Positions 36,000 through 58,699 of a DNA stretch of 64,000 nucleotides are shown here, piece after piece (position 1 is the first letter of the stretch; every line of letters starts with the position of its first letter). This DNA comes from Streptomyces fulvoviolaceus (GTDB taxonomy: Bacteria; Actinomycetota; Actinomycetes; Streptomycetales; Streptomycetaceae). The position numbers and the translations under genes were made by a program. The DNA lies in the NCBI RefSeq assembly GCF_000718165.1, contig NZ_JOEY01000009.1, positions 153,745 to 217,744 of the forward strand, written 5' to 3'. The notes beneath the pieces were generated by a model. The model saw only the letters and a list, made by a program, of their open reading frames with translations. It was not told the origin of the DNA and searched no databases.

Positions 36000-36348
36000 G
36001 CCAGTTGGACACGGTTACCCCCTTGAGGGTTGTACGCCACCGTCCATCTTCTCTCAGGCAGCACAACTGACCGTGCGTCAAACGCGCTCATGCCCTACCC
36101 GCTCTTCCCCTATGTCCTGAATGACCGGGGCGTCCCCACGCCCCTTGGTGCATCCCCGCGCCCCCGAAGGGCGTCCGCAAAGACGCTCCCCGCCCTCCGC
36201 GCGGTTGCGGAGGGCGGGGAGCAAATCTTCGGATGCCTAGGCGGCTCGGAGCAAGTGGTACGGACCAGCGGCCGTACAGCACACGTTCTGCACAGATCCT
36301 ACAAACGAAATCGGCCAGGGCCAGGAGTTTTCCCGAGTGACTCCCGCC
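36000..36348. other. Intergenic region between asd and the sigma factor gene
   Basis: 349 bp without a gene. It holds the asd terminator (36185-36222) and, to its left, the presumed promoter of the sigma factor gene, including CTTGAGGGTTGTACGCCACC near the start codon. I recognise no promoter consensus. Confidence 0.5.
36185..36222 (-). terminator. Terminator of the ask-asd operon
   Basis: A perfect 16-bp stem, GCTCCCCGCCCTCCGC and GCGGAGGGCGGGGAGC, encloses a 6-nt loop. It lies 127 bp downstream of the asd stop on the minus strand and has no U-run on that side (GTCTTTGCGG follows), as is common in Streptomyces. Confidence 0.85.
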
Positions 36349-56448: not shown

Positions 56449-56889
56449 ATGATCCTGGTGACCGGAGCGACGGGCCATGTGGGCGGCGAGCTGATACGGC
56501 GACTGGCGGCGGCCGGAGAGCCGGTGCGGGCGATGACCCGACGCCCGGGCGAGGCACGGCTCCCCGCCGGCGTGGCGGCGGTGTACGGCGACGCCGCCGA
56601 CCCGGCGAGCCTCGACGCGGCGTTCGCTGGCACGTCCGGGGCCTTCCTGATGTCGGCGCAGGCGGTGGGCACGGCCCCCGAGCCCACCCACGACCTCGCG
56701 CTCGCCGCGGCGGCGGCGCGGGCGGGCCTCCGCCGGGTGGTGAAGCTGTCCACGCTGGACGGCGGAACGGGCGACGACCCGATCGCCCGCTGGCAGACGA
56801 CGGCGGAGGCGGCGGTGACCGACCCGGCCCGCGGCTTCGCCTGGACGCTCCTGCGCCCCGGCCGCTTCATGTCCAACGCCCTTCATTGA
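56449..56889 (+). pseudogene. NmrA-like NAD(P)H-binding protein, truncated by insertion
   Basis: The first 146 residues of an atypical short-chain dehydrogenase (NmrA/YtfG type). MILVTGATGHVGGELIRRLA carries the G-x-x-G-x-x-G nucleotide loop; VVKLSTLDGGTG and WTLLRPGRFMSNALH are typical of the fold's middle. Full-length members have about 250-290 residues. Here the frame stops in the TGA that is the first codon of an IS200/IS605-type element end (TGACATCC...). The missing C-terminal half is not found on the other side of the element, so a deletion accompanied or followed the insertion. The ATG at 56449 follows AAGGGAGACC. Confidence 0.85.
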
Positions 56890-56894
56890 CATCC

Positions 56895-56916
56895 TCCCCC
56901 TCTTAAAAGAGGGGGA
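56895..56916 (-). ncRNA. Right-end hairpin and presumed reRNA (omega-RNA) scaffold 3' part
   Basis: TCCCCCTCTT and AAGAGGGGGA form a 10-bp stem around AA. It overlaps the tnpB stop (TAA) at the element end. In characterised IS200/IS605 elements this region is transcribed as the omega-RNA scaffold, with the guide just beyond the end. Here the guide would come from the disrupted NmrA-like gene. Confidence 0.45.
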
Positions 56917-58192
56917 TTCCAACCCAGTTGAGTTGAGGTTCACGGGTGCTCGAACGGCTGGTGGCCGTTGTCACCCCTCCGACACCGGCTGAGCGCCGGG
57001 GGCGGGGAATCCCGCCCTGTCCTGCCGCGACGTTGACTGCTGCGTTGCTGTCCGCGTTGCAGGTGAAACCACAGAAGGAACAGACGAACTCGGCTTGGCT
57101 CTTGCGCGAGTTCTTGTCGATCCATCCGCAGGCACTGCACCGCAGGCTGGTGTAGGCGGCGGGCACGTCCTCGACCCGCCCAGGGGCCTTGTCCTCGGTG
57201 CGCTGCCGGAGCAGGCCCCAGCCCTGGGCGAGGATCGCCCGGTTCAGCCCGGCTTTCTGCCGCACCTGTCTGCCCGGCTCCTGAACGGTGCCCTTCGCCG
57301 AGCGGGTCATGTTCTTGATGTTCAGCTTCTCGAACCGCACCAGGTCACAGGTGCGGGCGAGCATGGTCGATGTCTTCTCGCACCAGTCCTTGCGCCGGTT
57401 GGCCTCGCGGGCTTTGAACCTGGCGACCATGGCGTACTCGGCCGTCTTCCGCGCGCTGCCCTTCGGAGCGCGGGCGGCACACCGCTGGTGCTTGCGGATC
57501 TGGGCCCGCTCCCTGGCCGTGAGCTGCGGACAGTTCAGCTTCCGCCCGTCCGACAGAGCGGCGGTGATCGTCACGCCACGGTCGATACCGATGACCTCGC
57601 CGGTGCCCGGTGCGTCGACCGGCTCGGGGATGACGGCGAATGCGGCATGCCACTGCCCGTTCCGGAAGGTGACCCGGAACGTCTTCGACCCGGGCAGTTC
57701 GGGGCGGGTGAGGCGAAATCGCACCCAGCCGCAGCCGGGCACCTTGACCTGCGCCCACCGGCGGTTCAGCTTGTGCACCACCACCGAACGCCCCATGACC
57801 TGTTTGCCGGTCGTCGGGTTGACCTTGGGCGTGCCGTCGTCGTTGAACTCCGCGACCCGGTCGGTGCCGATGACGCGGAAGCCCTCGTGCCGGAACTTCT
57901 TGCGCCAGGTCGGCTCACCGAAGCCCGAGTTGAACCGGGCGTTCTTGGCCTTGGCGAAGTCCTTGAGCGCCTGCTGCTGCACGTCGGCGTTTCCTTCACG
58001 CAGCCACTCGTTCTCACGGCGGGCTTCGGTGAGCTGGCGGCACTGCTCGGCGAACCCCGGTGCCGACTTCCGTCCGGGCTGCCAGTGCGCATGCTGCTCG
58101 ACCGCCAGGTTCCACACGTACCGGGCGTGCGCGCAGTGCAGGAGCATCGTCTGCTCCTGCTGCGGCGTCGGGTACATGCGAAACCTTGCCAT
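56903..58192 (-). CDS. tnpB: RNA-guided endonuclease TnpB (intact catalytic site)
   Basis: A 429-residue TnpB/OrfB. The N-terminal HTH_OrfB_IS605 region reads RMYPTPQQEQTMLLHCAHAR and YVWNLAVEQH. RuvC motifs are VIGIDRGVTITAALSDG (Asp204), LVRFEKLNIKNMTRSAKGT (Glu288) and CNADSNAAVNVAAGQG (Asp381). The zinc ribbon is CSACGW (Cys352, Cys355) and CSFCGF (Cys371, Cys374). All catalytic residues are present, so this is not a nuclease-dead TldR. The length is normal. Start ATG 58192 lies inside a palindrome shared with the divergent ribbon-helix-helix gene. Known TnpBs cleave DNA guided by omega-RNA and help retain the element. Confidence 0.92.
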   Translation of the reverse strand: MARFRMYPTPQQEQTMLLHCAHARYVWNLAVEQHAHWQPGRKSAPGFAEQCRQLTEARRENEWLREGNADVQQQALKDFAKAKNARFNSGFGEPTWRKKFRHEGFRVIGTDRVAEFNDDGTPKVNPTTGKQVMGRSVVVHKLNRRWAQVKVPGCGWVRFRLTRPELPGSKTFRVTFRNGQWHAAFAVIPEPVDAPGTGEVIGIDRGVTITAALSDGRKLNCPQLTARERAQIRKHQRCAARAPKGSARKTAEYAMVARFKAREANRRKDWCEKTSTMLARTCDLVRFEKLNIKNMTRSAKGTVQEPGRQVRQKAGLNRAILAQGWGLLRQRTEDKAPGRVEDVPAAYTSLRCSACGWIDKNSRKSQAEFVCSFCGFTCNADSNAAVNVAAGQGGIPRPRRSAGVGGVTTATSRSSTREPQLNWVGIPLF

Positions 58193-58222
58193 GGGACCAT
58201 TCTAGCTCAAGAATGGTCCCAT
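58191..58222. promoter_or_regulatory. Perfect 13-bp palindrome shared by tnpB and RHH start codons
   Basis: ATGGGACCATTCT (58191-58203) and AGAATGGTCCCAT (58210-58222) are perfect inverted repeats separated by six bases. The initial CAT of tnpB on one strand and the ATG of the ribbon-helix-helix gene on the other fall in the outer ends. It could be an operator for the ribbon-helix-helix protein or a hairpin masking translation. Confidence 0.7.
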
Positions 58223-58391
58223 GAAGCATGTGAACCTGAGACTCCCCGACGATCTGCACGAACAGGCCCGGGCCGCGGCCGATGCCGACGACCGCTCCCT
58301 GAACTCCTGGCTGATCGCCGTCGTACGACGCGCCGTCACCCTGGGCGAGACGCCGAATCGCCCTGAAGGCGATTCGGCTACCCCTGCCTGA
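58221..58391 (+). CDS. Ribbon-helix-helix (Arc/HicB-like) protein
   Basis: A 56-residue protein reading MKHVNLRLPDDLHEQARAAA then DADDRSLNSWLIAVVRRAVT. The HVNLRLP strand followed by two helices is the Arc/MetJ (RHH) DNA-binding fold seen in HicB- and Arc-type repressors and antitoxins. The C-terminus overlaps a hairpin that may be the left end of the transposable element. It diverges from tnpB with start codons only 28 bp apart inside one palindrome. No leader or own ribosome binding site is visible outside the palindrome, so translation may be leaderless. A regulatory role on tnpB is inference. Confidence 0.75.
   Translation: MKHVNLRLPDDLHEQARAAADADDRSLNSWLIAVVRRAVTLGETPNRPEGDSATPA
58352..58378. 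repeat. Hairpin, possible IS left-end structure
   Basis: GCCGAATCGCC and GGCGATTCGGC form a perfect 11-bp stem with loop CTGAA, inside the last codons of the ribbon-helix-helix gene. Size and position fit an IS200/IS605 subterminal hairpin. It could alternatively be a terminator. Confidence 0.5.
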
Positions 58392-58453
58392 ACGACCTTG
58401 TCCTGGCAGCCGCCGGAAATCACGTTGCTGACGGCCCCAACACCGGTGGGCGC

Positions 58454-58699
58454 ATGAGGAGCCTGGCACGCCCTCGCCGTCCCCGACACAGGAGCCGACC
58501 ACACCGATACGGCTCCTGCGGGGCGGTGTACGTCATGGGGGAGGGCGACACGGTCTGGTTGCAGGGGCAGACGGACTTCCTGGGTGTCGGCAGCAACTCC
58601 AACTCCGTCTGGTGCCAGGAACCCGCCGACGAGGTGGTCACCTACCCGGCGTTGCCGGGCAGGTACTACACCAGCAGGTCGTACGGATGCCTTCGCTGA
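58454..58699 (+). pseudogene. C-terminal remnant of a secreted protein (possible)
   Basis: An 81-residue frame whose last 60 residues look protein-like: GSCGAVYVMGEGDTVWLQGQ and then VWCQEPADEVVTYPALPGRY ending YGCLR, with three cysteines and a beta-rich pattern suited to an extracellular module. The first 20 residues are Arg/Pro-rich and resemble out-of-frame sequence, and no signal peptide or ribosome binding site is present. I take it as the tail of a gene lost during the events around the IS element; a genuine small gene is possible. Confidence 0.4.

Follow-up and report, generated by a model that had tools for sequence, protein, structure and literature searches.

A conserved ribbon-helix-helix gene and its predicted operator as a putative repressor module of TnpB elements

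Genes and features at the locus

The locus lies in a 64-kb window (the whole stretch of DNA that was analyzed) and holds two divergent genes, namely tnpB on the minus strand and a short gene for a ribbon-helix-helix (RHH) protein on the plus strand. The tnpB gene (56903..58192) encodes a protein of 429 amino acids with Pfam and NCBIfam domain matches, RuvC signature motifs and two CxxC zinc motifs. It scored above the Pfam cut-offs for OrfB_IS605, Cas12f1-like_TNB (53.7 and 50.8 bits, respectively) and HTH_OrfB_IS605, and reached 202.5 bits against the NCBIfam guided_TnpB model, for which the cut-off is 100; the RuvC signature motifs are GIDRG at residue 202, FEKLN at 287 and NADSNAA at 379. 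The probable omega-RNA region (56887..57013, minus strand) lies at the 3' end of tnpB, where omega-RNA is expected and where two Rfam models match below their gathering scores: sot0042 with 25.5 bits (E 5e-4; gathering score 88) and HgcC with 22.6 bits (E 0.02; gathering score 50). The right end of the element (56886..56915, minus strand) consists of the hairpin CCCCCTCTTTTAAGAGGGGG (56915-56896) and the GGATGTCAA tip (56894-56886), i.e., the window copy has an IS200/IS605-type right end (hairpin plus TCAA tip), and 59 of the 66 distinct loci that have a close TnpB carry the GGATGTCAA tip at the right-end position.

At the other side, the conserved left end of the relatives lies, by inspection, about 100 bp beyond the RHH core, which places the RHH gene inside the element. 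This left end is missing from the window copy: the match to four relatives stops at 58388, so the left end was lost here, with the junction at 58388..58389, and the truncated copy is probably immobile. No credible Y1 tnpA match was found in the RHH loci examined; weak Y1 matches in the second of the three TnpB lineages described below could be traced to a query overlapping antisense tnpB. Judged from its sequence, the window element is of the IS200/IS605 type, tnpB-only (IS1341-type), and truncated at its left end.

Several other features surround it. The right end of the element cuts into an NAD(P)-binding (NmrA-like) gene at 56449-56889. Reading on past the RHH gene, one does not meet the rest of this gene immediately, a picture that agrees with a deletion in which the left end was lost as well. 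A short open reading frame at 58454-58699 resembles the C-terminal end of a secreted protein and is possibly a remnant. Toward its 3' end, the RHH gene contains a perfect 11-bp inverted repeat with a 5-nt centre (58352-58378); locus L052 has it unchanged and other relatives keep it in part, and it is perhaps a left-end structure or a terminator.

In the genome of the window, 14 TnpB loci were counted, three of which carry the RHH gene (contigs C9, C18 and C6). Four other loci have a Y1 tnpA no more than about 2.5 kb from the tnpB match, and none of these four has an RHH match. In L007, L008 and L012 of this genome, a Y1 tnpA lies close and divergent to tnpB, and the RHH gene is absent; it is this place of tnpA that the RHH gene occupies.

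The RHH gene (58221..58391, plus strand) encodes a protein of 56 amino acids of the Arc/Mnt type, with H3, N5 and R7 as the predicted DNA-facing residues. An earlier, sequence-only reading had described it as a 56-residue Arc/HicB-like protein, and both Pfam families indeed matched it above their cut-offs (Arc, 31.7 bits, cut-off 20.4; HicB, 27.7 bits, cut-off 21). Pfam Arc was also matched in 22 of 22 chosen RHH relatives, and a profile search of solved structures returned Mnt (1mnt, E 6e-9) and Arc (1arq, E 7e-5) among the closest. The structure model of the monomer was a poor one, with two helices, no strand and a pLDDT of 68.5. Over 12 loci of one class, the pooled pN/pS of the RHH core was 0.24, and the core is, by this measure, under purifying selection. 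The part beyond about residue 42 is variable or shortened, and is encoded near or in the element end; the protein has 67 amino acids in the near relatives L023 and L052. A protein search retrieved 730 RHH relatives at E 1e-5 or better, and the names among the 120 listed included Arc family, HicB family antitoxin and YlcI/YnfO. There was no match to the RHH protein in the phage collection, and one (E 1e-5) in the plasmid collection. Two groups of candidates were set aside as unrelated, having no adjacent TnpB match: the Arc-like stretches in longer open frames that are common in Streptomyces (L046-L049, L051, L003), and the C-terminal RHH stretches in Acidimicrobiia and Halopolyspora (L064-L071).

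The two genes meet in a perfect inverted repeat (58190..58223), which we propose to be the RHH operator spanning two divergent promoters. The sequence-only reading had reported a perfect repeat of 13 bp with a 6-bp centre that holds both start codons; the repeat, its centre and the inclusion of the start codons were all confirmed by the coordinates, while the arms proved to be 14 nt long. The outermost triplets of the repeat are in fact the start codons themselves, the tnpB ATG at 58192-58190 on the minus strand and the RHH ATG at 58221-58223 on the plus strand. Perfect repeats with arms of at least 14 and a centre of at most 20 occur twice in the window, here and at 36185; the latter (36185-36222) is longer, with 16-bp arms and a 6-nt centre. 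When the whole 11.6-Mb genome was searched for both half-sites at the same spacing, they were found without mismatch in two places, i.e., at this locus and at the RHH-tnpB locus on contig C18, in no place with one mismatch, and in two places with two mismatches. The repeat is judged not to be due to chance, and the main argument is conservation rather than rarity.

Conservation of the RHH-tnpB pair

The RHH protein was searched for in 392 Streptomyces genomes (from which the 30 best loci were taken), in genome contigs (20 loci) and in 293 genomes of the order, and a profile of it was run against 394 genomes from the family and 396 from the phylum. A profile of our own was built from the loci recovered by the RHH searches. 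Counting best matches only, 57 distinct RHH-search loci scored at least 50 with this profile, and 56 of them had a divergent TnpB within 400 nt. These 56 pairs were split 34, 6 and 16 over three TnpB lineages that are 25-31% identical to each other. Over all the loci collected, the corresponding count at a score of at least 50 was 63/64; for lower-scoring RHH-like matches, TnpB was the neighbor in 4 of 12 (score 35-50) and in 8 of 16 (below 35). The search for tnpB with an adjacent RHH gene, and the comparison of the palindromes, had been suggested along with the sequence-only reading; both came out in its favor, the pairing as just stated and the half-sites by tracking the RHH strand residues, as detailed below. 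The named hosts of the pair include Streptomyces, Nocardiopsis, Glycomyces and Actinomadura. With the 15 best candidates per genome scored, the RHH family was detected at E 1e-11 in 24 of 394 family genomes and in 2 of 396 phylum genomes, both of the latter belonging to the genus of the window; the family thus looks centered on Streptomycetaceae, with the named outliers.

A close TnpB (E 1e-120) was present in 34 of 392 Streptomyces genomes, four candidates per genome being scored. Removal of duplicates reduced 91 loci to 73, of which 66 were close relatives, and these 66 distinct loci, with TnpB at least 60% identical, formed the comparison set: 33 with the RHH gene intact (RHH+), 6 with it decayed and 27 without it (RHH-). 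RHH+ denotes a score above 50 with our own profile together with an intact start, and it includes L074 and L082, which may be decaying; L123 was counted as decayed, some of the 27 RHH- loci (L097, L103, L112, L113) carry remnants by eye, and L033, L037 and L043, which have no tnpB start, were left out. It is to be noted that the set mixes finds initiated by RHH and by TnpB, so that 33 versus 27 is not a frequency; the TnpB-initiated finds alone (54 matches) comprised 21 RHH+, 5 decayed and 28 without the gene, one of which (L043) is without a tnpB start. The sequence-only reading had held that absence of the RHH gene from other copies of the element would speak against it. Such absence does occur, in 27 of the 66 close tnpB loci, and to that extent it counts against the reading, but those 27 are without the operator too.

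On a TnpB tree of 57 of the 66 rows (nine rows of at most 330 amino acids being left out), the RHH+ label needs 14 changes, 7 of which are forced by well-supported branches, with bootstrap values that are not settled. The RHH-operator cassette has therefore undergone repeated loss or exchange. In one genome (G024), three close tnpB copies (L074, L101, L103) were scored as RHH present, decayed and absent, respectively, and in these the RHH gene seems to decay after insertion. Five RHH- loci (L076, L085, L089, L093, L104) have a common GGGGAAC upstream of the -10, and in most of them a motif resembling GTCACTCNNNCGGGTG lies some 60 nt from tnpB; they represent another promoter and left-end layout.

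Predicted divergent promoters and a proposed phased operator

A -10-like hexamer, TAGAAT (58199..58204, minus strand), is found 6 nt before the tnpB ATG, which predicts a leaderless start. The pattern TANNNT exactly 6 nt before the tnpB ATG was present in 30 of 33 RHH+ loci of lineage 1, in 4 of 6 of lineage 2 and in 7 of 9 of lineage 3; in the RHH- loci it occurred 6 or 7 nt before tnpB in 23 of 27. No consistent -35 was seen for tnpB, either in a promoter scan of 58100-58450 or in the comparison across loci. On the RHH side, the predicted promoter (58186..58214, plus strand) consists of TTGCCA (58186-58191), a 17-nt spacer and AAGAAT (58209-58214), the last again 6 nt before the ATG. It was the sole sigma-70-type match in 58100-58450, with 9 of 12 bases (mean of shuffles, 0.0), and its -35 falls within the first codons of tnpB. 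Of the 21 loci whose operator has the 34-bp spacing, 18 had 5 or 6 of the 6 consensus bases in this -35, and 45 of 48 loci carried NANNNT 6 nt ahead of the RHH start, 9 of 48 the complete TANNNT. Both genes are thus predicted to start leaderless.

Between and across these hexamers, the predicted operator is made of 8-bp TGNNNNCA sub-sites that are spaced 11 or 22 bp apart. Sub-site 1, TGGGACCA (58192..58199), is on the tnpB side, and TGNNNNCA was found at this position in 43 of 48 distinct RHH-tnpB intergenic regions. Sub-site 2, TGGTCCCA (58214..58221), is on the RHH side, 22 bp away, and a degenerate central sub-site, TAGCTCAA (58203..58210), lies 11 bp from sub-site 1 and is weak in the window copy. 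Over the 48 regions, identity to the first sub-site peaked at 11 and 22 bp and not at the neighboring offsets, with further peaks at offsets 28 and 39 where the RHH-tnpB gap is longer. Stacked RHH dimers would need such helical phasing of their sites. Since the central sub-site shares the TA of the tnpB -10, the operator could account for part of the conservation of this hexamer, although TANNNT is retained at 6 or 7 nt in 23 of 27 RHH- loci as well. Six loci (L025, L026, L121, L125, L032, L062) have 51-bp operators with extra sub-sites, and their RHH proteins begin with M/V-TKH; these longer operators are perhaps one dimer pair per promoter.

A locus was scored as having the operator if its first sub-site recurred at +11 or +22 bp with 6 or more of the 8 positions identical, within 60 nt outward from the tnpB start. 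This phased pattern was present in 32 of 33 RHH+ loci, in 2 of the 6 decayed ones and in none of the 27 RHH- loci. Similarly, an inverted repeat exceeding that of shuffled sequences (z over 2) was found in 27/33 RHH+ as against 1/27 RHH- loci.

Covariation of the RHH strand and its half-sites

The two arms match each other within loci more often than permutation allows (219/280, where permutation gave 167.3 on average, sd 7.2; p 5e-5, the smallest value that 20,000 permutations can yield), and did so as well when reduced to 21 distinct arm pairs (96/147 versus 79.1, p 5e-4). The sequence of the half-site, in turn, goes with the strand residues of the RHH protein, numbered here on MKHVNLRLP. 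The triplet H/N/R at residues 3, 5 and 7 occurs mostly with GGGACCA or GGTCCCA, K/T/R with GCCGCCA or GCCGTCA, and R/A/R with GATGTCA or GACGTCA. The clearest cross-lineage cases of a recognition code are the strand KLNLR, found with GGCCCCA in TnpB lineages 1 and 3, and NxNVR, found mostly with GGCTACA in lineages 2 and 3. Exceptions were also noted: in the HNR class, the tnpB-side sites of L029 and L062 are odd; the RHH-side sites of L030, L035 and L119 are poor, and L042 fits neither.

In Mantel tests on 46 of the 48 loci (L042 and L082 being left out), the half-site correlated with residues 3, 5 and 7 at r 0.64, and the partial r given the rest of the protein was 0.47 (p 5e-4). Protein and site are neighbors, so the association is inflated by common descent; in fact, the core-facing strand residues 4, 6 and 8 alone gave r 0.57 and the body alone 0.54, which means that descent explains part of it; body identity, for its part, retained a partial r of 0.25 (p 0.001). 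With residues 4, 6 and 8 removed, the partial r of residues 3, 5 and 7 was 0.47. Across lineages, pairs with equal strand residues shared 4.73 of 7 half-site positions (67 pairs) as against 3.74 for unequal ones (482 pairs; p 5e-4). Where the bodies were at least 60% similar, the corresponding values were 5.79 (213 pairs) and 4.57 (214 pairs); at a body identity below 50% the gain was modest, 4.58 (19 pairs) against 3.87 (504 pairs). An operator of helically phased sub-sites tied to β-strand residues, as belongs to Arc/Mnt proteins, is therefore what was found.

A putative autorepressor and the alternatives

We consider it highly probable that the RHH protein is a dedicated autorepressor carried by a tnpB-only element, whose dimers on phased sub-sites would block both divergent leaderless promoters and keep TnpB low. 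Specifically, RHH dimers would occupy two quasi-palindromic 8-bp TGNNNNCA sub-sites (up to three or more in relatives), 11 or 22 bp apart and on one face of the helix. These sub-sites cover the DNA from the -10 hexamers to the starts at both of the overlapping promoters, so that bound RHH would exclude RNA polymerase from both; by autorepression, the RHH protein would set its own level while holding TnpB low. What the sequences show directly is the layout, its conservation, the joint variation of protein and site, and the purifying selection; on these comparative grounds, binding to the operator is very likely, and repression of tnpB and of the RHH gene itself is likely. Points that weigh against the reading are the lack of a consistent tnpB -35, the RHH -10 that is complete in 9 of 48 loci, the share of descent in the association, the sites that break the code, and the lower-scoring RHH-like matches, many of which have no TnpB neighbor. 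In the part of Nety 2023 (PMC10278001) consulted, TnpB can cut omega-RNA from its own mRNA; a single operator could therefore hold down both components of the nuclease, and the repressor possibly limits omega-RNA as well. The biological reason may be to limit self-cutting, or to let TnpB surge when the element enters a naive cell. The proposal of the sequence-only reading that a dedicated RHH repressor acts at the palindrome gains support from the divergent pairing (56/57), the confinement of the operator to loci with the gene, and the half-sites that follow the strand residues.

A different role, which we regard as improbable, would be that of a toxin-antitoxin-like pair, in which RHH binds and neutralizes TnpB and the repeat is merely the usual autoregulatory operator. 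RHH-type antitoxins do autoregulate through palindromes, and among the matches listed the public records often name the RHH protein a HicB-family antitoxin. However, the RHH gene and tnpB are divergent rather than in an operon, no conserved partner-binding domain was seen in the RHH protein, its C-terminus past about residue 42 being variable or shortened, and PADLOC gave no match for it at E 0.01.

The sequence-only reading had itself offered a mutual RNA hairpin, in which a longer transcript would form a stem from the repeat and so hide the start codon of tnpB or RHH. A perfect 14-bp stem should be stable, its arms covary and the start codons are within it, and yet we give this explanation very little credence: the -10-like hexamers (TANNNT-N6-ATG in 30/33 RHH+ loci) predict leaderless mRNAs that miss one arm. 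Moreover, a hairpin does not predict the third site at 11 bp, the flipped sub-sites or the link to β-strand residues, and the inverted repeat exceeds shuffles in 1/27 RHH- against 27/33 RHH+ loci. Hardly tenable is the idea that the repeat is a subterminal left-end hairpin for TnpA acting in trans, such as IS200/IS605 elements have, even though Y1 transposase genes exist elsewhere in the genome, because the conserved left end of relatives is about 100 bp past the RHH core and 24 of 27 RHH- loci keep the same right end, yet RHH- relatives are without the repeat.

Returning to the autorepressor, a more speculative extension, which we hold to be possible but rather doubtful, is that recognition by the RHH repressors is diversifying as a code by which TnpB elements fall into immunity groups, the cassette moving between TnpB lineages into the divergent place of tnpA. 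Entry into a cell without a matching RHH would then give a burst of TnpB, and a resident element of the same group would silence the newcomer, much like phage heteroimmunity.

Comparison with known systems and significance

Type II RHH antitoxins (HicB, ParD, FitA-like), which autoregulate via palindromes, resemble the RHH protein in that its Pfam HicB match is above the cut-off; they differ in that the RHH gene here has no toxin gene in an operon and its protein no conserved C-terminal toxin-binding part. Mnt and Arc of phage P22 are among the closest solved relatives, and H3, N5 and R7 align with what we take to be their N-terminal strand; they are, however, regulators of phage genes, and the alignment covers the core of 37-41 residues alone. 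The general RHH mode of DNA binding is described in the portion of PMC3325190 consulted.

The nearest parallel in arrangement is found in the V-K CAST systems. As stated in the sections of Ziemann et al. (2023, PMC9938897) consulted, the regulators divergent to cas12k are CvkR and two RHH types, Arc_1 and Arc_2, of 53-72 amino acids; repression is shown there for CvkR, a MerR-type protein that binds a palindrome. Both CvkR and Cas12k are translated from mRNAs that have no leader, and every regulator type goes with a single Cas12k group. In both systems, as far as those sections go, the effector is RNA-guided and has a divergent regulator gene upstream of it, and RHH types exist. On the same basis, they differ in that Cas12k belongs to Tn7-like transposons and its proven repressor is of the MerR type, whereas TnpB here belongs to small IS200/IS605-type elements of three lineages. 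The TnpB-RHH pair also shows an operator code and exchange; it is set beside Arc_1 and Arc_2 by their description in that source. Although it resembles the V-K CAST arrangement, the pair stands outside that group, the neighbor of the RHH gene being TnpB (guided_TnpB, 202.5 bits). The cis-inhibition by TnpB mRNA, as presented in the consulted part of PMC10278001, is likewise a possible element-borne control on TnpB activity; it acts through RNA, whereas the RHH module is proposed to act through a protein repressor.

Among the papers listed from the open-access literature searched, which covers few subscription papers, none on an RHH gene paired with tnpB was found, and no such pair is described in the consulted parts of PMC9956272, PMC3119063, PMC13092281 and PMC8987985. 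Divergent RHH genes beside cas12k are already known from the sections of PMC9938897 consulted, and the pairing with TnpB appears to be new within that open-access literature.

Overall, the locus is best described as a conserved, dedicated module of TnpB elements that consists of a putative repressor and its predicted operator. To our knowledge, the control of the nuclease in small tnpB-only elements is largely open, and the known controls act on RNA. The module combines a proposed protein repressor with a predicted operator, and its residue-to-base code exists in natural variants, which makes binding, specificity swapping, and copy-number or zygotic control directly testable. Its parallel to the RHH genes beside cas12k, as far as the consulted account of these goes, suggests that divergent leaderless repressors recur for TnpB-derived nucleases, and a small RHH switch with a readable code may help control TnpB-type nucleases.
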